Shown in pieces: positions 14,040 to 61,810 of a stretch of DNA of 64,000 bases; positions within the stretch are counted from its first letter, which is position 1, and each line of letters begins with the position of its first letter. This stretch comes from Rickettsiales bacterium. Its GTDB lineage: Bacteria; Pseudomonadota; Alphaproteobacteria; Rickettsiales; UBA998. Both the position numbers and the translations under genes were made by a program. The notes beneath the pieces are model-generated. The model saw only the letters and a list, made by a program, of their open reading frames with translations, was not told the DNA's origin and ran no database searches. Location: positions 1-64,000 of the forward strand of contig JANQNR010000004.1 in the NCBI GenBank assembly GCA_028279475.1. The letters are read 5' to 3'.

Positions 14040-14813
14040 ATGAAACATCGTGGTTTTAGCTTAGTAGAATTATCCATCGTACTCGTTATTCTTGGGCTGT
14101 TGACAGGCGGCATTCTGACCGGGCAGCAATTGATTGAGGCGGCGGAATTGCGCGCTATTTCTCAGGAACAGGAGCAGTTCACTACAGCCATTATGGCTTT
14201 TAAGAATAAATATTTCGGGCTGCCGGGTGATCTCACGAATGCAACGGATTTTTGGGGAACGGCAGGAGGCAACGGTGCCAATGCCGCCTGCTATGACGTA
14301 TTCTCAACGACTGGTGCAACCTGCAACGGGGATGGCAATAATCAGGTGTTGGGAGCTTACGGGCCTGGTAATGAAGGGCTCAGGATGTGGCAGCATCTCA
14401 GTAATGCGGGCCTGTTGGCAGGATCATATGCCGGCGGTGACGCCACGGATGGCGGTTATGGAGATTTCCTCGTTGCGGATGTCAACGTACCTTCCTCGAA
14501 ATTCGGTAAGGGCACATATTGGTATGCCGGACATCAGCCGACCAGTGCCGGTGATGCGTCAAATTTTGCGGTGACGGCCAGTAATTTTATGCGTATTACC
14601 GGCACCTCAACCTTCCTGTTGCCGGAGCAGGCGTGGAATATTGATAAGAAAGTGGATGATGGGCGCCCTAATACGGGCAACATGGTGACGAATAAGGGAG
14701 ATGCAACCTACCCATGTACGGATGCCGCAGGTGTGGTGCCTCCGGGAGATGCGAATGCTCAGTATAATCTGACGTCAAGCGTATCGTCTTGTTTGCCCTG
14801 GTGGTATTTCTAG
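14040..14813 (+). CDS. type IV pilin-like (prepilin N-terminus) protein
   Basis: 257 residues. Class III signal at once: MKHRG then FSLVELSIVLVILGLLTGG, cleavage after Gly5, Glu at +5. The following globular part (KYFGLPGDLTNATDFWG onward) is Gly/Asn/Thr-rich with cysteines in two loops and ends SSCLPWWYF. The LPGD and ATDFWG motifs occur in a class of pseudopilins of unknown role. No pilus assembly genes are near; it would rely on machinery elsewhere. It has no RCC1 domain, unlike the operon at 53-59 kb. Confidence 0.85.
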   Translation: MKHRGFSLVELSIVLVILGLLTGGILTGQQLIEAAELRAISQEQEQFTTAIMAFKNKYFGLPGDLTNATDFWGTAGGNGANAACYDVFSTTGATCNGDGNNQVLGAYGPGNEGLRMWQHLSNAGLLAGSYAGGDATDGGYGDFLVADVNVPSSKFGKGTYWYAGHQPTSAGDASNFAVTASNFMRITGTSTFLLPEQAWNIDKKVDDGRPNTGNMVTNKGDATYPCTDAAGVVPPGDANAQYNLTSSVSSCLPWWYF

Positions 14814-28892: not shown

Positions 28893-29256
28893 TTTTTCGT
28901 TTACTCGCGAAACAACCCCTTAACTCTAAACAAAAGTTCATTAATGGGCAACGAGTTTTTTTAAGGCGCCTCATGAGTGCTCTAAGACGGTTAATGCTCT
29001 TAGTCGGCGGACGGCAATCATGGAATGCTGTTGCGTTTTATCCCATTCAGTAAAAGAAGTATTAATAACTGTTACATTGCGATGACGCTCGCGTGTAATT
29101 CGTACATAATGCGCGTTGATCATAATAATTTTTAGAAAAAATTTAAAAAGATTGATTTTTTAACCAAACCTTCAATTGAATGTTAACTATTCACTCAATA
29201 TTATTAACAAAGCCGCAAGGCGATGTAAAACCTGTTAACATGTGAAGGAGACGTTC
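28893..29256. other. 364-bp intergenic region upstream of the RTX gene
   Basis: AT-rich, no coding frame of note. Contains the candidate RTX promoter at 29176-29204 and A-rich runs near 29130-29165. Nothing else recognisable. Confidence 0.6.
29176..29204 (+). promoter_or_regulatory. candidate promoter of the RTX gene
   Basis: TTGAAT (29176-29181), 17-nt spacer, TATTAT (29199-29204), within an AT-rich region; GGAG precedes the ATG at 29257. Confidence 0.5.
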
Positions 29257-31083
29257 ATGTCTGTAATTATTGGTACATCCTCAAACGATAATCTAGATGG
29301 TACTGCAAACAACGATATCATTAAAGGTCGTGATGGTAATGATACGCTGGCCGGAGGTGCCGGCGATGATTTGCTGATCGGTAATAAAGGCGACGATATA
29401 TTGCGGGGTGATGATAACTCATCATCCGGAACGGGTTCGTCTGCGGGTAACGATACGTTAAAAGGCGGGCAAGGTAATGACCGGCTTGGCGGAAAGGACG
29501 GCGACGATGTGCTGTTTGGCGGAAGAGACAATGACTCGCTTTGGGGCGATGCCGGGAATGACGTCCTGCGCGGCGGCTGGGGTGATGATATGCTGCTCGG
29601 TGGTGCGGGTAATGACACGCTCCGTGGCGGCAAAGGCAATGACACCCTGATAGAATCGAAAGGGAATAATGAAATGCGTGGTGGCCGGGGCGATGATACG
29701 CTGACGGCAGCCTCCGGTTCCGATACGCTCTATGGAGGGTGGGGAGATGATTCTCTGAACGCCGGTGGCGGCAATGATGTGCTGCGCGGCGGCAAAGGCA
29801 ATGATACATTAATCGGTGGTGAAGGGGATGACCATATTCGTGCCGGGCGTGATAATGACCTGGTCTTTGGTGGTGAAGGCAATGATACGATCCGGCTGGG
29901 CAAAGGCGATGATAGTGCCGAAGGCGGGGATGGGAATGATATCATCCGTGGTGGCAAGGGTGCCGATACACTGATTGGAGGTGATGGTGCCGATACGATT
30001 TACACAGCTCACGATGTGGAAGCCGATGTAGTGGTGTTTGCCGATCGTGCCCATAGTACCAATGTTAACGGCGATACATTGTTCCGTTTTGAAGCAGGTG
30101 AGGACAAGATTGATGTCTCTGCCATTGGCATTACCGGCCTGACTACCGATAGCGTGACAGGTGCCGATGCATTGCGGATTGAGTATGATGCAGTGAATAA
30201 CCTGACCATCGTGAAAAATGACGTACCCGACGCGTCCAGCGGTGAAACTTTCGAGTTTACGCTGCATGGCGACTATCGTGATCTGAGCGAAGCTGATTTC
30301 ATCTTTGCCGTTGATCCGAATGATGAACTGATCATCGGAACGGCATTAGCAGACAGCTTTAATGGTGGTATTGGTGATGACACCATCTATGGACGTGAAG
30401 GTAACGATACGCTGTCTGGCGATGAAGATGCCGACGAGATTTACGGAGAGGATGGTGATGATTCATTACTCGGTGGTGACGGTGATGATACCCTCGATGG
30501 TGGCGACGGGCTGGATATGCTTGATGGTGGTGATGGTAATGATTTGCTGAAAGGCGGCGCAATTGCCGATACCATATTAGGTGGTGATGGGGATGATACC
30601 ATTGAAGCTGGGGCAGGTGACGATTTCGTGCGCGGTGGTGATGGGGATGATCTGATCCATGGCGACGCAGGGAATGATCGTCTCTTTGGAGATCGTGGGA
30701 ATGATACGATCTATGGCGGCGCAGATGTGGACTCACTTCTGGGCGGTAACGATGATGATCTTCTCATTTCCGAACAGATTGACGGCGACGTTTCCGGGCA
30801 AAATGGCAATGACACCCTAGTTGGTATGGATAGCACGGCCGTCTTTAACGGTGGTCTGGGAGAGGATGTGTTCCGCTTCACCGGTAATGGTGCCAAGGTG
30901 CAAGACTTTAGTAGAGGGCAAGACCTGCTGGATGTCTCTGCGTTTGCAACCAGCATGGCTGACCTTACTATTACCAACAGTACAACCAGTAGCGGGGCGA
31001 TTATTACAACCAGTGGTTCAGAGTTTGAAGTTCTGAATGTTGGGCCAGCCTTGTTTACGGCTGATGATTTCATCTTCGGATAG
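29257..31083 (+). CDS. RTX calcium-binding repeat protein, two-module
   Basis: 608 residues, almost all GGxGxDxLx nonapeptides that bind Ca2+ after export. Module 1 (about 8-250) is followed by a non-repeat beta region resembling the serralysin C-terminal secretion domain (FRFEAGEDKIDVSAIG ... LSEADFIFAVD, to ~350). Module 2 (about 355-520) is followed by a similar region (FRFTGNGAKVQDFSRGQDLL ... FTADDFIFG) that ends the protein. So the secretion-type domain is duplicated, once internally. No catalytic domain and no signal peptide: type I secretion is expected, but no exporter genes are near. GGAG supports the ATG at 29257. Confidence 0.93.
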   Translation: MSVIIGTSSNDNLDGTANNDIIKGRDGNDTLAGGAGDDLLIGNKGDDILRGDDNSSSGTGSSAGNDTLKGGQGNDRLGGKDGDDVLFGGRDNDSLWGDAGNDVLRGGWGDDMLLGGAGNDTLRGGKGNDTLIESKGNNEMRGGRGDDTLTAASGSDTLYGGWGDDSLNAGGGNDVLRGGKGNDTLIGGEGDDHIRAGRDNDLVFGGEGNDTIRLGKGDDSAEGGDGNDIIRGGKGADTLIGGDGADTIYTAHDVEADVVVFADRAHSTNVNGDTLFRFEAGEDKIDVSAIGITGLTTDSVTGADALRIEYDAVNNLTIVKNDVPDASSGETFEFTLHGDYRDLSEADFIFAVDPNDELIIGTALADSFNGGIGDDTIYGREGNDTLSGDEDADEIYGEDGDDSLLGGDGDDTLDGGDGLDMLDGGDGNDLLKGGAIADTILGGDGDDTIEAGAGDDFVRGGDGDDLIHGDAGNDRLFGDRGNDTIYGGADVDSLLGGNDDDLLISEQIDGDVSGQNGNDTLVGMDSTAVFNGGLGEDVFRFTGNGAKVQDFSRGQDLLDVSAFATSMADLTITNSTTSSGAIITTSGSEFEVLNVGPALFTADDFIFG

Positions 31084-53288: not shown

Positions 53289-55199
53289 CTAGTTTGTTTG
53301 AACGGTGATGCCGGTGGTTTGCGCAGGAGCCGCAGGTGTCAGGTTTGTACTGCCGTCACCGAACTGACCGTCCGGGTTTTCTCCCCAACACCAAAGTTCA
53401 CCGCTGCTTTTTACGCCACAGGTGTGGAATTCACCTTTGGTAGCAGCGCTTATCCAGTCGGTATCCGTTCCAACCTGTTGCGGTGAGCCTATGTCGCCAC
53501 CGCCAACGCCATCAATCTGACCATTATTGTTGCGACCCCAGCAATAGAGTTCGCTGCTATCGTTTACGCCACAGGTTGTATAGGTCCCTGTCCATACATA
53601 ATTCCAATCGCTGACAGCTCCTGTTACGATGGTCGGGTCTTGTTCATTACCACCGCCGGTTCCCAGGTTTGAATTTCGATCTTCTCCCCAACAGCGCATT
53701 TCCCCGGTGTCGCGGATAGCGCATGTGCTAGTAGAGGTCGTATGCACGAAGTTCCAGTCGGTAATGGCACCCGTGACGAGGAACGGAGCATCCTTATCGC
53801 CTTCGCCGGCACCATTTCCTAACTTACCGGTTGTGCCATCGTCACCCCAACAATAGAGATCTCCGGTACTCCGAACACCACAACTATGTTGTGAGCCAAC
53901 TGTAATCATGATCCAGTCACTATGCCCGCCATCAACCAAGTCAGGTATCTGACTCGCGCCATCGGTACCATTTCCAAGTTGCCCTTCGTCATCTAGTCCC
54001 CAGCAATAGGCTTCTCCACTATTACGGATACCACATGCATGGTCTGCACCCGCATCAATATACGTCCAGTCCGTATGGTTGCCGAATACTTCTGTCGGCG
54101 TATCGCTTGCGGTTGTACTGTTATTACCAAGCTCTCCATTATCATTTTCGCCCCAGCAATAGGCGCGCCCGCTACTCCGGATACCGCAGGCCGTGCTGTC
54201 ATCCCCGTTAATCATCGTCCAGTCGGAGAAGCCGTTTGCCTCCGTCACAAAGCTGGTGCTGTTCCCTGACGCACCATTACCCAGAATGTCATCCGTATCT
54301 GCGCCGGCACATTGAAGGTTGTTCGTGTTATTAATAATACAGGTAAAATCCTCGCCTGCGATGATATTGCGCTGCGCCAGCAGATCGTAGTTGATGCCAC
54401 TTCCCCCGCTTGCAATTCTGGCCAGGGTTGCGGTGGATTGCCAGCGTACCAGGTCATAGAAATAATTAGCACCACTGGCCTGATCGTTGATTGCACGCGT
54501 TACAAACATACGATCCTCATCACCTGCAACCAGATAATCACAATTTTCCGAATCGACGGCGGTATTACCGCAATCAACGGAGGTAATCCCCTGTTTGGTG
54601 TATGCTCCCTTTTTGTCGGGGCCATGGCTGGTCAATACGTAGCCTACCAATTCGGATGAATCATTGCCATGCAACACGGCACCGGTACCATCTACTACTT
54701 GAAAATAGCCACTGGTCTGTGTTGGTGCGTACGTATCATACGTTGCCTGGTCAATGCCCAGATCACGAATAATGGTGTAAGAAATCGTATTACCCCATTC
54801 ATCGGCCGCATAGCGGTCGGGAATACCAAGTGTACGAGTGGGTACGCCACCGACGCGCACATGATAATCGTCATCCGGGTCGATATGGACGACACCGGCC
54901 TGTGCCGGGTCGCTACAATCCGAGCTTTCCCTGTAACCGGCATCGCCGACTTTCTGATCCAGTCGTGAAGGGCAGGGCAGATGACCGTATTGCACAAAGA
55001 AATAGACAATGGCGCGTTCCACTTCATCCAGCTTGGACTCCGTATCGCTGATAATGGTTTCCTCACGCTCCGTCACCTGTGTTTGCAGCACGGCGGCCAT
55101 GAGTAACCCGAAAATGGTTATCATGATCGACAGTTCGATGAGAGAAAAGCCGTGTTGTGATGGCTTGTTCATGCGACGGCGCGTGATGTTGTAACCCAT
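53289..55199 (-). CDS. prepilin-RCC1 fusion protein 1 (operon gene 4)
   Basis: 636 residues. N-terminus with a class III signal: HG then FSLIELSIMITIFGLLMAAV, cleavage after Gly. Residues ~30-270 are the pilin-like head (GHLPCPS, RTLGIPDRYAADEWGN, YVLTSHGPDKKGAYT). From ~290 come seven blade-like units with Cys-x(~8)-CWG or close, each ~45 residues: CIINNTNNLQC, CGIRSSGRAYCWG, CGIRNSGEAYCWG, CGVRSTGDLYCWG, CAIRDTGEMRCWG, CGVNDSSELYCWG and CGVKSSGELWCWG. A secreted disulfide-bonded RCC1-type propeller at the tip of a pseudopilin is the likely form. GAGGAG precedes ATG 55199. Confidence 0.85.
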   Translation of the reverse strand: MGYNITRRRMNKPSQHGFSLIELSIMITIFGLLMAAVLQTQVTEREETIISDTESKLDEVERAIVYFFVQYGHLPCPSRLDQKVGDAGYRESSDCSDPAQAGVVHIDPDDDYHVRVGGVPTRTLGIPDRYAADEWGNTISYTIIRDLGIDQATYDTYAPTQTSGYFQVVDGTGAVLHGNDSSELVGYVLTSHGPDKKGAYTKQGITSVDCGNTAVDSENCDYLVAGDEDRMFVTRAINDQASGANYFYDLVRWQSTATLARIASGGSGINYDLLAQRNIIAGEDFTCIINNTNNLQCAGADTDDILGNGASGNSTSFVTEANGFSDWTMINGDDSTACGIRSSGRAYCWGENDNGELGNNSTTASDTPTEVFGNHTDWTYIDAGADHACGIRNSGEAYCWGLDDEGQLGNGTDGASQIPDLVDGGHSDWIMITVGSQHSCGVRSTGDLYCWGDDGTTGKLGNGAGEGDKDAPFLVTGAITDWNFVHTTSTSTCAIRDTGEMRCWGEDRNSNLGTGGGNEQDPTIVTGAVSDWNYVWTGTYTTCGVNDSSELYCWGRNNNGQIDGVGGGDIGSPQQVGTDTDWISAATKGEFHTCGVKSSGELWCWGENPDGQFGDGSTNLTPAAPAQTTGITVQTN

Positions 55200-55221
55200 G
55201 GTGATGCTCCTCTTGATTACC

Positions 55222-57195
55222 CTATGTACCTACATCCGGTGCAGCGGTGATTTCGGTCGGTAAGACGATGCTGGATGAATTGCCGCCATTGCCGAAGACA
55301 CCGTTGGTATTCTTACCCCAGCAATGGAGTTCACCTCCTGTACGTACACCACAACCGGACAGTGTGCCGGTCGACTGCATAACTTTCCAGTCGGTGATCG
55401 CTGGTGCAACAGGTTGCGGTGTATTGTAATCAATCAATCCGGCGATTCCGAGTTCCCCCTCGTCATTGGCACCCCAGCAATAGCCCTCACCTGTAGCGCG
55501 CACGCCGCAGACAGTACGCTCTCTATGTACATTTCCATGTCCTCCGCCAATATGCACGTAGGTCCAGTCGCTAATTGTTGCATCGACGCGTGTCGGAGAG
55601 AGAGCATAAGAACCTCCGGCACCGTCACCGACCTGTCCGGAGGTTTTACGCCCCCAGCAATAAAGTTCACCGCCGGCTTTAATGGCACAGCTATTGTAGA
55701 AATTGGATGTTACCGTATCCCAGTCACCATCACCATTGATGAGAACAGGAGTGTGATTGATTGACCATGAACTGCTGCCAGTACCCATGGTTCCCATGTA
55801 ATGGCGTCCCCAGCAATACAGGTTGCCATCCATGATACCGCAACCGAATTCCGTACCGAGGCTGACGTCGGTCCATACGCCGGCTCCGGCGCCCGTAACC
55901 TGTGTGGGATTATTCTTGTCAGTCGTATCTCCAACGCCCAGTTCTCCGTTACTGTTTTCTCCCCAGCACCAGAGCTGGCCGCCATTGCGGATACCGCAGA
56001 GATTCTTTCCGCCATAGGCCATATCTTCCCAGTCGGTATAGGTGACGGTGGTGCCACCATGTTCCGCAGGGGCATTAGCGGTGATGTCGTTCCCCCCCGG
56101 CCAGTCACCCCTGTAGCCCCAGCAATAGATGCGGCCGTTGCCGCGGAGTCCACAACGAGCAATTCCCCAGTCATTGCCTTCTACCTTGATCCAGTCGGTG
56201 TTACCATCGATCAGTTGGAAGGAGGTGGAATGACCGCCACCGCCGCCGCCATTACCCAAGGCACCATCATCATCCAGACCGGTTCCCCATAATTCACCTG
56301 TTGGCGTAATGATAAAGGTATTGGCATTCCATACATCCATCTTGGCAGCCGTTACTATACCGCCTGAAGGAGGAGTAGCCGGAGTAGCAGGGGTGCTTTC
56401 AACGGCGTTCACGGCACCGAGGCTCACTTTGGTTTTCCAGCGCACCAGATCATGGAAATATTCGGCGTTATCCGTACTTGCATTCAGTTCGCCATCAATA
56501 AAAATATGATCCTCATTACCACTGTCGACGATGTCGCAATTCTCGATGTCAATCTGTGTGTTGGTGCTGGCGCAACCGGCGGAGAGCGTACCGGCTCTCG
56601 TATAGGCGCCGCGTTTGTCCTGTCCGTGACTCATCAGTACGTAAATCACCGGGTTGGCGGTATCTGCCGGGTTCATCTGGCTTCCGCCCTTATCCTGTAC
56701 GGTAATCATGGTCGCCGTATTGTCGGCATCCAGCTCTCTCAGATTGTTGCCATCCGTTGCAAAGTTTTTAGGTACGGCATAGGTAAACCGGTTGTTCCAG
56801 TGATCCAGGGCAAAACGATCCGGCAGGCCCAGTGTACGGATAGGCACCGACCCGACCCAGATTTCATCCGGTGTGCCGTCACTCAGTTCTACGATAGAGC
56901 CATCACTGGCGGCAGCGAGTGAGCAATCATCTTCCAGTCCGTAGCCGGCATTATCATCCGACAGTGCCGGAATGGCCGGGCAGGGAAGGCGGTTATTGTA
57001 GTTCACATAACGTTTCAGCGCATCTTCAATGGCATTGAGATTCGAGCGTGTGGCAACTTGCGCATCTTTTTCTGACTTGGTGGTTGCCAGTGACAGAGCC
57101 GTTCCGGCGACGATACCGACCAGTGCCAGCGTGACCGATAATTCGATCAATGAGTAAGCTGCATTACGTAATAGGTTAAAACGTTTCTTTTCCAT
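55222..57195 (-). CDS. prepilin-RCC1 fusion protein 2 (operon gene 3)
   Basis: 657 residues, same design as its neighbours. The signal is atypical: AA before YSLIELSVTLALVGIVAG, so Ala-Tyr in place of Gly-Phe at the cleavage site; Glu at +5 is kept. Head motifs: RLPCPAIPALSDDNAGYG, RTLGLPDRFALDHWNNRFTY, YVLMSHGQDKRGAYTRAG. Seven blades, the first without cysteines (FIITPTGELWGTG), six with CG(L/I/V)-x-CWG-like pairs. ATG 57195 has GGAG 8 nt before it; GTG 57204 is possible. 22 bp to the next gene. Confidence 0.85.
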   Translation of the reverse strand: MEKKRFNLLRNAAYSLIELSVTLALVGIVAGTALSLATTKSEKDAQVATRSNLNAIEDALKRYVNYNNRLPCPAIPALSDDNAGYGLEDDCSLAAASDGSIVELSDGTPDEIWVGSVPIRTLGLPDRFALDHWNNRFTYAVPKNFATDGNNLRELDADNTATMITVQDKGGSQMNPADTANPVIYVLMSHGQDKRGAYTRAGTLSAGCASTNTQIDIENCDIVDSGNEDHIFIDGELNASTDNAEYFHDLVRWKTKVSLGAVNAVESTPATPATPPSGGIVTAAKMDVWNANTFIITPTGELWGTGLDDDGALGNGGGGGGHSTSFQLIDGNTDWIKVEGNDWGIARCGLRGNGRIYCWGYRGDWPGGNDITANAPAEHGGTTVTYTDWEDMAYGGKNLCGIRNGGQLWCWGENSNGELGVGDTTDKNNPTQVTGAGAGVWTDVSLGTEFGCGIMDGNLYCWGRHYMGTMGTGSSSWSINHTPVLINGDGDWDTVTSNFYNSCAIKAGGELYCWGRKTSGQVGDGAGGSYALSPTRVDATISDWTYVHIGGGHGNVHRERTVCGVRATGEGYCWGANDEGELGIAGLIDYNTPQPVAPAITDWKVMQSTGTLSGCGVRTGGELHCWGKNTNGVFGNGGNSSSIVLPTEITAAPDVGT

Positions 57196-57200
57196 GTTGA

Positions 57201-59147
57201 TCACTCCGTAATCGTTATTTCCGTTGGTGTCACAATACTCGTTGACGTCGTGCCGTCACCAAACTGCCCGTTTCTGTTTTCACCCCAGCAGTAATATTGT
57301 CCTGTCTGGCGAACGCCACATCCTGAAAGAATATGGTTTGCCTGATATTCTTTCCAGTCGGTGATAGATGTCGCTACTTGCTGTGGTGCATTGTATTGAC
57401 TTGGTGTGGCAGACCCAGTTCCCATCTGGCCGTTGTCATTCCTCCCCCAGCAATACGCCAGACCGCCGGCTCGCACGCCGCAGGTGGTTCTGCCTTCCCA
57501 TGTGAAGCCGTCTCCCAGGCTGATTGAGACATAGCTCCAGTCGTCAAAGGCAACCTTCACAGGTGCTTCCCGAGTTGTTGTGGTGCCGTCGCCTACCTGT
57601 CCCCAGCTATTTACGCCCCAACAATAGAGTTCACCACCATTTTTGATGCCGCACATATTGTAATGTGAGGAGGCCAGTGATTCCCAATTATCCCCCGCAA
57701 CGGAGGTAATTTGTGTCGGTGTGAGGCGCATTGCCCCTTGGGGGCCAAGACCCAACCCCAGCATATTTCCTGTATTCCTGCCCCAGCAGTAAAGTCTCCC
57801 GGTATTAATTCCACAAGTGACTCGTTCAGCACTTTGCACATCACTCCATCCATTGGTTGGAGTAACGGCCGTGACCTGTACCGGGGTTGCATGATCCACC
57901 TGATCGCCCTGACCGAGTTTTCCATACTCACCGTCCCCCCAGCACCAGAGTTCGCCGCCATTGCGAATACCACAGATGACGGCGCCAAATGCGACTTTCT
58001 CCCAATCGGAATAGGTCTGATTGGGAGCTTCTACAATTGACGTGGTATTAAGTGCTGTGCCGCTACGGTTAAAATCATCATGCCATCCCCAGCAATAGAT
58101 CTTGCCATCTGCCCGAAGTCCACACCTCCTTGCCCCCCAGTCGTGACGGTGCACGATGGAGACCCAGTCGGTTGCCGTGCCGATTTGTTCAAAGGTGGTG
58201 GTATCATCATTCCAGCCACCCCCATTTCCCAGCGCTCCTTCTCCATTCTCAAGTCCGGTAGCATATAATTTTCCATCGGTAGAAATAATAAAGGTATTGT
58301 TCCAGGTAGTTGAAACAGAGCTTGCCATGACAAGACCGGAGGTGGAGCTTCCATCACCGCTTTCATGTGCTAAAAGTGCACCTGCGCTCACTTTCGTCTT
58401 CCAGCGCACCAGGTCATGGAAATATTCTCCGGGCGTCGTGCTGTTATTCAGTTCCGCATCAATAAATACGCGTCCTTCAGCCACGACATCCTGATGATCG
58501 CAGTTTTCAGCATCCTGTTGTGCATCACTGTCGCTACAGGCAACGGAGACAGCGCCAGTACGTGTGTATCCCCCGCGCTTGTCCTGCCCGTGACTTATCA
58601 GCACATAGGTGACTGGGTTTTCCGTATTCGCCGGACTTACCCGATTGCCTGATTTGTCTTGAATTTCCAGCATCACTGCCGGGTCGTCGCCTTCCAGTGT
58701 TTTCAGGTCATTACCAGCTGTGGCGAATGCTTTGGGGACGACATAGGTAAAACGTGTATTCCAGCCATCAAGCATATAGCGGTCAGAAAGTCCTAATGTG
58801 CGGGTGGGAAGGTTGCCGATCCAGACTTCGTCTGCAGTGCCGTCATTGACTTCCACGATAGTAGTGTCGCTGGCTGCAGCCTGAGAACAATCATCCTCCA
58901 CCCCGTAATCCGGGTCATTTTCAGCAAGATCCGGAATAGCAGGGCAAGGCAGGCGGTCATTCAGTTTTACAAAACGTTTCAATGCCTCTTCAATCACATC
59001 CATGGAGGCAACCGTTTCTTCCTGAACACTTGCACCTGATTCCTTGGTTGCCAGTGATAAACCGGCACCGATGACAAGCCCTATCAGGGCAACGGTGGTT
59101 GCCAGTTCAATCAGGGAGAATCCACTATATTTTCTTTTCCTTGCCAT
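57201..59147 (-). CDS. prepilin-RCC1 fusion protein 3 (operon gene 2)
   Basis: 648 residues. Signal KYSG then FSLIELATTVALIGLVIG, regular Gly-Phe cleavage site. Head RLPCPAIPDLAENDPDYG, RTLGLSDRYMLDGWNTRFTY, YVLISHGQDKRGGYTRTG; near-identical in layout to fusion 2. Seven blades, the first Cys-less (FIISTDGKLYATG), then CGLRADGKIYCWG, CGIRNGGELWCWG, CGINTGRLYCWG, CGIKNGGELYCWG, CGVRAGGLAYCWG, CGVRQTGQYYCWG. Start ATG 59147 or GTG 59150. Stop overlaps the next gene's GTG. Confidence 0.85.
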   Translation of the reverse strand: MARKRKYSGFSLIELATTVALIGLVIGAGLSLATKESGASVQEETVASMDVIEEALKRFVKLNDRLPCPAIPDLAENDPDYGVEDDCSQAAASDTTIVEVNDGTADEVWIGNLPTRTLGLSDRYMLDGWNTRFTYVVPKAFATAGNDLKTLEGDDPAVMLEIQDKSGNRVSPANTENPVTYVLISHGQDKRGGYTRTGAVSVACSDSDAQQDAENCDHQDVVAEGRVFIDAELNNSTTPGEYFHDLVRWKTKVSAGALLAHESGDGSSTSGLVMASSVSTTWNNTFIISTDGKLYATGLENGEGALGNGGGWNDDTTTFEQIGTATDWVSIVHRHDWGARRCGLRADGKIYCWGWHDDFNRSGTALNTTSIVEAPNQTYSDWEKVAFGAVICGIRNGGELWCWGDGEYGKLGQGDQVDHATPVQVTAVTPTNGWSDVQSAERVTCGINTGRLYCWGRNTGNMLGLGLGPQGAMRLTPTQITSVAGDNWESLASSHYNMCGIKNGGELYCWGVNSWGQVGDGTTTTREAPVKVAFDDWSYVSISLGDGFTWEGRTTCGVRAGGLAYCWGRNDNGQMGTGSATPSQYNAPQQVATSITDWKEYQANHILSGCGVRQTGQYYCWGENRNGQFGDGTTSTSIVTPTEITITE

Positions 59148-59149
59148 CA

Positions 59150-59938
59150 CTATTGCATACTTGGATCAATTAAATATTTAGCTTTCCACAATACCAGATC
59201 ATCGAAAAACGCCGCATCCGTGGAAGCGGAGAGTGCAACGGATTTATCAACAAATATATTATCGTTATTGCAATTTTCTTCATCGCCATGACCGGCTGTA
59301 CAGGTGGAAGCGGTGCCTCCACTCTTGGGAGTTGCACCCTTCTTGTCATCGCCATGACTGACAATCAGATAGGCGGCCAGTTGATTGCCTGTAGAGGCTC
59401 CAATAATGATTGTTCCGGCAGCAGAATCTCTTATTTCAATACCGTTTGTGGCAGGTTTTGAGTAGGCGTCAAACGTTGCCTGATCAATGGCCAAGTCTTT
59501 TACTACGACATAAGTAAACCGACTGTTCCAGGCATCATACATATAAAAATCCGGTAAATTAAGTTCCCGAACGGGTAACACTCCGATACGAATATCGTCT
59601 GCCGTTATGGCGCCATCCGTGCTGACATCGGTGACGCCGGCAGGGGCGGCTGCACTACAGTCCGTGGCAGTACCAAAGGTGCCTGTATTTGGTAGTGGGT
59701 CACGCTCTGCCGGACAGGGCAGGTTGCCGGCAACCATCACATATCGTTCCAGTGCATCTTCAATCACTCTGAGTTTCTCTGCTGTCGCATCGTATTTGGA
59801 GATTTCCTGCTGGCGTTCACCCAGTACGAGCAGGGATCCGGCCATGGCCGCAATAATCGCCAGCACAACGCTCAACTCTACCATTGAGAAACCAAGCGTT
59901 GACGGCGTGATATGATGTCGTGCGGTATGGATAGTCAT
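59150..59938 (-). CDS. pseudopilin without RCC1 domain (operon gene 1)
   Basis: 262 residues. Signal STLG then FSMVELSVVLAIIAAMAGSL, cleavage after Gly, Glu at +5. Head motifs shared with the fusions: GNLPCPAERDPLPNTG, RELNLPDFYMYDAWNSRFTY, YLIVSHGDDKKGATP, and DLVLWKAKYLI near the end where the fusions have DLVRWKTKVSL before the propeller. So the propeller was added after this head in the others. First gene of the four-gene operon. Confidence 0.88.
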   Translation of the reverse strand: MTIHTARHHITPSTLGFSMVELSVVLAIIAAMAGSLLVLGERQQEISKYDATAEKLRVIEDALERYVMVAGNLPCPAERDPLPNTGTFGTATDCSAAAPAGVTDVSTDGAITADDIRIGVLPVRELNLPDFYMYDAWNSRFTYVVVKDLAIDQATFDAYSKPATNGIEIRDSAAGTIIIGASTGNQLAAYLIVSHGDDKKGATPKSGGTASTCTAGHGDEENCNNDNIFVDKSVALSASTDAAFFDDLVLWKAKYLIDPSMQ

Positions 59939-60094: not shown

Positions 60095-61810
60095 ATGATG
60101 CAAAAGCGCTTATTTCCCAGTGACCATTTCGCGGCCTTCGCCTTTTCTTCCGCAGACTTATTATTCGAAGTCGATGGAGAGGGTAAGATTCTATACGCTG
60201 AAGGTGCGATTACCGGATTATTGGACTATGAGTCTGACAAGCTTGTAGGCAAGGAGTTTTCTGAATTAGTAAAACAGCAACATCGCAAACGTCTTGGAAA
60301 TATTTTCCGTTCGCTGGAACGCCTTCATCGAATTGATGCCGTATCTCTTTCATTGATTACGGCCGGAGAGCATTTGGTGCCGTTCAGGCTTTCGGGCGTC
60401 TATGTTGATCATAAGGGTGGACGTTATTATCTGTCGCTACGTTCGGAAACGGAGATGCAGACACCGGCGGATCTGGATATTCGTGATCCTGAAACAGGGG
60501 TATTGGAGAAAGAGACGTTCGCTATTAAAGCCAGTGAACGTATTTCCGAGGCGGTTGAGAAAGGTGAGGAAGTTGAAGTCACGATTCTAGACTTCCCTGG
60601 CCTGGAAACCATGCTCGATAGCATGGGAAAAGATCAGGCCAAGCTGTTGCTGCGCGTCATTGGGGATTATCTGAAGGAACATTCCATTGATAATGATTCT
60701 GCGGGAGTGGTTGACCGGGAATCTTATTCCATCATTACGCCGGCCTCTATTGATAAAGAAGAACTGGTCGAAGGAATACAGGGCGCCGCACGGCGTGAAG
60801 TATCGGAATCGCTGAACCTTGAAGTACGCACTCATACGATTAAGACGGAATCAGAGGAATACCCGTTGTCTCAGCAGGATACGGCCAATGCTGTGCTGTA
60901 TACGATCAATAAATTTGCCAACGATAAAGGGGAGGCATTCAGTATCCAGTCTCTCAACGAAAGCTATGAGGAAATGCTGGATGTGACGTTGGGGCATATC
61001 AGTGAGTTTCGTCGCACACTGTCTGCGGATGATTTCTCCATGGCGTATCAGCCGATTGTTAATATTCGTGATGGTAAAGTGCATCATCATGAGTGCCTGG
61101 TGCGTCTGAATAATTCAGAAAAGTTCAGCAACCCGTTTGAGTTTATTACCTTTGGTGAGCAGTCGGGCCTGATTCATGAGTTTGATCTGGCAGTTACGGA
61201 GAAGGCATTATTGGTGCTACGGGACTTTGATCGCAAAGGCGAACCCATCAAGTTGGCAGTTAATCTTTCCGGGCGGTCGCTAGGGTCTAATCTGTTTATG
61301 GATAGTTTCCTCAGTCTGGTGCGCGATCACAAAGACGTACGGGAACAACTGATTGTTGAAGTCACCGAGTCCTACAAAATCGAAAACATGCAAATGGCCA
61401 ATGACTTTATTCAAACGCTAAGGGAAGAAGGAAACCTGGTGTGTCTGGATGATTTCGGTAGTGGCGAGTCTTCCTTCGACTATTTACGGCATCTGCATGT
61501 GGACTTTATCAAGATTGACGGCAGCTATGTACGCGATTCGATGAAAACCAGCCGCGGTCGCAAATTATTGAAGGCAATGGCCGGGTTGTGCCGGAACCTG
61601 GATATGAAGACGATCGGGGAGATGGTAGAAACGGAAAAAGAAGCCGAGTTTCTCAATGAGTGCGGGGTACAGTACGGCCAAGGCTATTTAATCGGTAAGC
61701 CGGATACCGACATCTCTGTATTACAGCTACATGGCAAAATTACCCATACGTATTCCGGGCTGTTCAATGCAAGGCGTTTCAAGAAGGATGATGAGGAAGA
61801 AGACGATTAG
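60095..61810 (+). CDS. PAS/degenerate-GGDEF/EAL protein
   Basis: 571 residues, cytoplasmic. PAS-like domain at ~10-115 (FSSADLLFEVDGEGKILYAE). The middle (~145-270) has the size of a GGDEF domain, but the active motif is replaced (VVDRESYSII), so no cyclase activity. EAL domain from ~305: YQPIVNIRDGKVHHHECLVR with ECLVR for EALVR, LAVNLSGRSL, EVTESYKI, CLDDFGSGESSFDYLRHL, FIKIDGSYV, and GQGYLIGKP. The main metal and substrate residues are present, so it may be a c-di-GMP phosphodiesterase or a binder. It is divergent from the prepilin-RCC1 operon, sharing a 156-bp upstream region. Confidence 0.9.
   Translation: MMQKRLFPSDHFAAFAFSSADLLFEVDGEGKILYAEGAITGLLDYESDKLVGKEFSELVKQQHRKRLGNIFRSLERLHRIDAVSLSLITAGEHLVPFRLSGVYVDHKGGRYYLSLRSETEMQTPADLDIRDPETGVLEKETFAIKASERISEAVEKGEEVEVTILDFPGLETMLDSMGKDQAKLLLRVIGDYLKEHSIDNDSAGVVDRESYSIITPASIDKEELVEGIQGAARREVSESLNLEVRTHTIKTESEEYPLSQQDTANAVLYTINKFANDKGEAFSIQSLNESYEEMLDVTLGHISEFRRTLSADDFSMAYQPIVNIRDGKVHHHECLVRLNNSEKFSNPFEFITFGEQSGLIHEFDLAVTEKALLVLRDFDRKGEPIKLAVNLSGRSLGSNLFMDSFLSLVRDHKDVREQLIVEVTESYKIENMQMANDFIQTLREEGNLVCLDDFGSGESSFDYLRHLHVDFIKIDGSYVRDSMKTSRGRKLLKAMAGLCRNLDMKTIGEMVETEKEAEFLNECGVQYGQGYLIGKPDTDISVLQLHGKITHTYSGLFNARRFKKDDEEEDD

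Follow-up and report, generated by a model that had tools for sequence, protein, structure and literature searches.

Four consecutive prepilin-like genes in a Rickettsiales genome, three of them fused to RCC1 propellers, are candidate modular minor type IV pilins

The window analysed here, a stretch of 64,000 nucleotides from a Rickettsiales bacterium, contains four consecutive minus-strand genes that encode proteins of 262, 649, 660 and 636 amino acids (Table 1). Read from position 59938 to position 53289, the genes meet in overlaps of 1 base and of 4 bases (GTGA) and, at the third junction, leave a 22-base gap that contains an AGGAG-like site, as a preliminary description of this DNA had indicated when it reported overlapping or nearly touching junctions. 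Its statement that the first gene encodes a head only, and that the other three heads are extended by RCC1 units, was likewise borne out by the open reading frames (ORFs) and by Pfam. The observed four-gene pattern is far beyond chance. Scans for promoters and terminators gave no clear excess over shuffled sequences, and no pilus machinery gene was found beside the operon within the window. The divergent gene next to the operon is separated from it by a 156-bp gap. Elsewhere in the window, positions 29242-31083 (+) encode RTX calcium-binding nonapeptide repeats with a serralysin C-terminal match.

Table 1. Positions in the window of the operon genes, their domains and the divergent neighbouring gene.
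Feature	Coordinates	Strand	Evidence
Head-only prepilin-like protein, 262 aa, same head family, without tail	59150..59938	-	ORF; structure model
F3, prepilin head + RCC1 propeller, 649 aa	57201..59150	-	ORF, Pfam, TIGR02532, motifs; 51% identity to F2
RCC1 propeller of F3, approx. residues 277-645	57216..58322	-	Pfam RCC1; alignment to F1
F2, prepilin head + RCC1 propeller, 660 aa; Ala replaces Gly before predicted cut	55222..57204	-	ORF, Pfam, TIGR02532, motifs
RCC1 propeller of F2, approx. residues 287-652	55249..56346	-	Pfam RCC1; PDB sequence match to UVR8, E 1.5e-21
F1, prepilin head + RCC1 propeller, 636 aa	53289..55199	-	ORF, Pfam, TIGR02532; structure model
RCC1 propeller of F1, residues 277-632, seven blades, seven cysteine pairs	53304..54371	-	AlphaFold; Foldseek and VIA versus UVR8; cysteine covariation
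Predicted class III signal and hydrophobic start of alpha-1 of F1 (QHG|FSLIEL)	55086..55199	-	N_methyl E 4.3e-5 (above Pfam cut-off); TIGR02532
PAS-GGDEF(weak)-EAL gene, divergent neighbour of operon	60095..61810	+	Pfam

All four proteins share a head of about 260 residues, in which alignment revealed invariant LPCP, RxL, SHGxDK and ENC motifs. The LPCP, RTLG-type and SHGxDKKG motifs named earlier are present, with RELN in the head-only protein and with SHGxDKKG and DKRG variants. A prepilin signal on each protein is supported by TIGR02532, whose cut-off was passed by three of the four and narrowly missed by F3; Pfam N_methyl was above its cut-off in one. The residue before the predicted cut is glycine in three proteins and alanine in F2. 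Across the head family, N_methyl matched 82 of 96 members at E<=0.01, and 94 of 110 carried a prepilin motif whose residue ahead of the cut is G or A. The operon proteins thus have the prepilin cleavage motif and hydrophobic helix of type IV pilins and pseudopilins. A model of the head-only protein (pLDDT 90.7), built from 96 heads of relatives, contains a 52-residue N-terminal helix (residues 19-70) and a globule with a beta sheet, in keeping with the long alpha-1 helix packed on an antiparallel sheet in pilins and pseudopilins. All 11 VIA rows reported at Z>=2 for the head were pilins or pseudopilins, the best being the pilin of the ETEC type IVb pilus (Z 5.8). PDB matches of the head profile were also confined to these two groups, with similarity to GspG about as strong as that to pilins. 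A Foldseek search with the head model returned no significant match, and in a Pfam scan of 96 head members no family besides N_methyl covered the head consistently. These comparisons support a pilin-like head that, as modelled, resembles only type IV pilins, with a weak structural likeness. The alanine before the cut site of F2 and a best head Z score of only 5.8 count against the reading proposed below, as does the finding of no pilus machinery gene beside the operon in the window.

The three long proteins matched the Pfam RCC1/WD40_RLD families with E-values of 1e-36 to 1e-74. An AlphaFold model of F1, based on a 13-row alignment of fusions, was confident over the propeller region (pLDDT about 88). 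This region matched UVR8 both in Foldseek and in VIA, the latter with Z 50.1 and rmsd 1.8 Å over 352 aligned residues. The strand list of the model comprises seven four-stranded blades, of which the last is apparently closed by strands from both ends, as in RCC1 propellers; structure prediction thus supports the seven-bladed propeller that had been anticipated. As in modular pilins, a pilin head is joined to an extra module, the RCC1 propeller, in three proteins by Pfam and in one by structure. The best structural matches of the propeller were UVR8 and HERC domains (Z 50 and 43), compared with about 39 for the Ran exchange factor RCC1. We identified no ligand-binding site on the propellers. 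Elsewhere, RCC1 propellers work as inhibitors, receptors or exchange factors too; adhesion hence does not follow from the presence of a propeller.

Although UVR8, RCC1 and HERC have the same seven-bladed fold (Z 38 to 50), they are intracellular eukaryotic proteins, whereas the propellers described here are predicted to be extracellular and carry a cysteine pair in nearly every blade. F1 has seven such pairs; F3 and F2 have six each, with both cysteines missing from the first blade. The paired cysteines of a blade are ten residues apart and lie on neighbouring strands, the second within CWG. Among 91 blades from 13 proteins, 86 had both cysteines, five had neither and none had a single one (p=2e-8, a value that is optimistic because the 13 rows are related). 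The five losses are spread over four proteins and three blade positions. Because the cysteines are kept or lost together and DsbB is encoded in the genome, disulfides that pin the blades are likely, and the perfect covariation lends support to the earlier proposal of disulfide-locked propellers.

The genome (1.98 Mb, 19 contigs, called complete) encodes pilus genes away from the operon, which the preliminary description had suggested looking for. Contig 10 carries PilB with MshEN, PilC and three genes in the pilMN/O/P position (named by gene order only, with no Pfam assignment), together with a PilD-type peptidase and an adjoining secretin, and contig 18 carries a PilT/PilU-like pair. The extension ATPase, platform, peptidase and secretin of a type IV pilus system (PF00437 with MshEN, PF00482, PF01478 and PF00263) are therefore present, the PilT/PilU-like pair standing for the retraction ATPase. 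There is also a separate Tad-like locus. N_methyl has 18 matches in the whole genome; about 13 of the pilin-like genes lie outside the operon, mostly encode 260-311 amino acids and are scattered, and one of these adjoins the pilB-C cluster. Pilin-like genes at positions 14040-14813 (+) of the window and at L050:1363-2142 are 49% identical and have a YFGLPGD motif in common. The pilin repertoire is large for a 2-Mb genome.

Among 344 genomes of the order, with the head called present at E<=1e-15, head and MshEN were both found in 125, the head alone in 14, MshEN alone in 15 and neither in 190. Such co-occurrence is what would be predicted for a pilus subunit, though shared ancestry inflates the count. 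MshEN is also found in type II secretion ATPases. In a metagenome-assembled genome (MAG) labelled Rhodospirillaceae, the head gene adjoins PilT-, PilU-, PilB-, PilC- and pilN-like genes, named by reading of their sequences. A link of the operon to c-di-GMP, through the MshEN domain of PilB and the divergent PAS-GGDEF-EAL gene, is possible, and we offer it as a suggestion only.

A further RCC1 fusion lies at the end of contig 8 of the same genome, its head lost at the contig end. F2 with F3, and F1 with the contig-8 copy, form the two closest pairs in this genome, each strongly. Full RCC1 fusions were found in 6 of the 344 genomes, in two families (G000, G003, G004 and G009; G020 and G042), and a divergent fusion with more repeats was found in a third family (G331); since scoring was confined to the three best places in each genome, fusion copy numbers are lower bounds. 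Tandem RCC1 fusions are also present in G009 and G020. The search for such fusions that had been proposed at the outset thus showed that they recur in relatives, often in tandem, and found no conserved four-gene order: relatives have two to three heads in tandem, arranged differently and bearing other tips. In family f29 of the order (G333:C25), RCC1 repeats fall within an apparent open frame of 25,553 codons; if real, the encoded protein would be extremely large.

Other tips on the same head family include NHL repeats, FG-GAP repeats, WD40-like propellers, a ConA-like lectin and several unnamed tails. The longest FG-GAP case is a head-family pilin of 2,444 amino acids with about 20 repeats (L065:5960-13294). 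On a tree of 107 heads, RCC1 requires at least 8 changes, of which at least 4 are imposed by branches with strong support; the full set of tip labels requires 30 changes versus 53 for shuffled labels. Exact counts are soft, as the tree was built quickly and has long branches. Because RCC1 is scattered on this tree, it can safely be concluded from sequence comparison that tips have been exchanged repeatedly on one head family. The head family also occurs beyond the order, in class and phylum searches, with tip types mostly assigned within the order; a scan of named genomes yielded two head-only or partial relatives, both in MAGs labelled Rhodospirillaceae. Micavibrio-like predators came into consideration on account of lifestyle, but the Micavibrio genome paper makes no mention of RCC1. 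Those RCC1 matches in the class outside the order whose sequence was read had no head in the stretches inspected. In two genomes of the small-genome family f19 (G072 and G074), the match to the sole head gene (L106 and L112) contains 1-3 TAA stops, which perhaps reflect decay or a match that merely extends past the gene end.

We propose that the operon encodes modular minor type IV pilins whose binding heads are exchangeable and are displayed at the tip of the pilus, probably as adhesins, a reading to which we assign a probability of about two-thirds; its anatomy is well supported and its function plausible. Four minor pilins of one head family would each be inserted into the inner membrane as prepilins, cut by the PilD-type peptidase and polymerized through the long N-terminal helix by the type IV pilus machine of the genome. 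This processing and assembly are predicted from sequence, and the gene for such a peptidase is present. Disulfides formed in the periplasm would pin the blades of the C-terminal seven-bladed RCC1 propellers of the three fusions. Because a propeller of ~355 residues is too bulky for the shaft, the most likely place of the fusions would be the tip or its vicinity, where they may form a hetero-complex with the head-only subunit. There the propellers would act as binding heads for another cell, a surface or a polymer, and pilus retraction would then pull the cell in. The tip position, complex formation, adhesion and ligand are what we infer. With different propellers and lectins mounted on it in relatives, the shared base resembles a socket into which binding heads can be exchanged. 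As a tentative extension, which we hold to be possible rather than probable, the head family may be a general tip socket with repeated swaps of unrelated propellers and lectins across the order and beyond; here three or four RCC1 propellers and the head-only subunit would co-assemble as a multi-propeller tip that sets the target range, for example which cell is gripped.

We consider it unlikely that the proteins are instead minor pseudopilins belonging to a system for pilus priming or one akin to type II secretion. Their propellers would then prime filament formation, serve as a cap, or gate or select the proteins to be secreted, and would bind no outside target. PilY1 and minor pilins are reported to prime assembly in Myxococcus (PMC7541494). 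The strength of the GspG match would suit this alternative, as would the tandem sets of two or three head genes, which are like minor-pilin sets. To our knowledge, type II secretion operates without PilT/PilU-like ATPases, and this genome has them. Moreover, the fold of the tip differs among relatives that retain the head, a pattern more in keeping with target binding than with a conserved role in assembly, and a large tip is not needed for core function because 50 of the 107 heads have tails under 100 residues.

The propellers could also be surface ornaments, expanded in one lineage with no selected common target, as a variable coat or phage decoy. Propellers do diverge faster than heads (48 versus 58% identity between F2 and F3; 49 versus 57% between the G020 paralogues), and the expansion is lineage-specific, as the strong pairing of F2 with F3 and of F1 with the contig-8 copy illustrates. 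However, faster divergence also fits changing targets, and open frames, all seven blades and the cysteine pairs have been kept over deep divergence, which makes this account improbable. We give very little weight to a role inside a eukaryotic host. Legionella RCC1-repeat effectors target the Ran cycle (PMC7157520), and propellers acting in the same way would need the pilin head only as an export device. The class III signal and conserved pilin head speak against this, as do conserved disulfides, which suit the outside rather than the host cytosol, a closer structural match to UVR8 and HERC than to RCC1, and the replacement of the propeller by other folds on the same head.

Our preferred reading, that these are modular tip pilins, has counterparts among known systems. 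In TM7x (Nanosynbacter lyticus, Saccharibacteria), the type IV pilus minor pilin PilX2 has a C-terminal seven-bladed RCC1 propeller and is needed for normal host binding: deletion of pilX2 cut binding from 10.6% to 4.6% of hosts and lowered competition, with pili still present (PMC12206443). PilX2 offers a direct precedent for function, although it is a single gene compared with three or four here, has no predicted PilD signal and belongs to an unrelated phylum. Modular pilins are a recognized class of >1,200 proteins in 264 architectures, which includes the Streptococcus sanguinis adhesin PilB (PMC8179133). PilB (vWA) and PilC (ConA-like lectin) of S. sanguinis each join a pilin module to a grafted functional module thought to lie at the tip (PMC8179133), and they offer a conceptual precedent; they differ in their modules, whereas here one long conserved head family, with only N_methyl in Pfam, bears many tip types. 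PilY1/PilC tip adhesins of type IVa pili similarly present a beta-propeller at the tip with minor pilins, but PilY1 is not itself a pilin, has an IPR008707-type propeller and associates with minor pilins rather than being fused to one. The operon proteins do not belong to that type: their Pfam scan gave RCC1 families and N_methyl only. The preliminary description had known of no described system with three such fusions in a row; given the recognized modular pilins, PilX2 and the tandem RCC1-pilin genes of relatives, the idea is not undescribed.

Of the findings added here, repeated tip exchange within one head family is the most interesting. What a bacterium holds on to is decided by the adhesins at its pilus tips, and one pilin base that has swapped at least four different propeller families and a lectin would be a natural record of tip evolution. 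The operon may also serve as a test case for the export and pilus mounting of a bulky propeller, and tip adhesins might be predictable from the head alone in many uncultured genomes.
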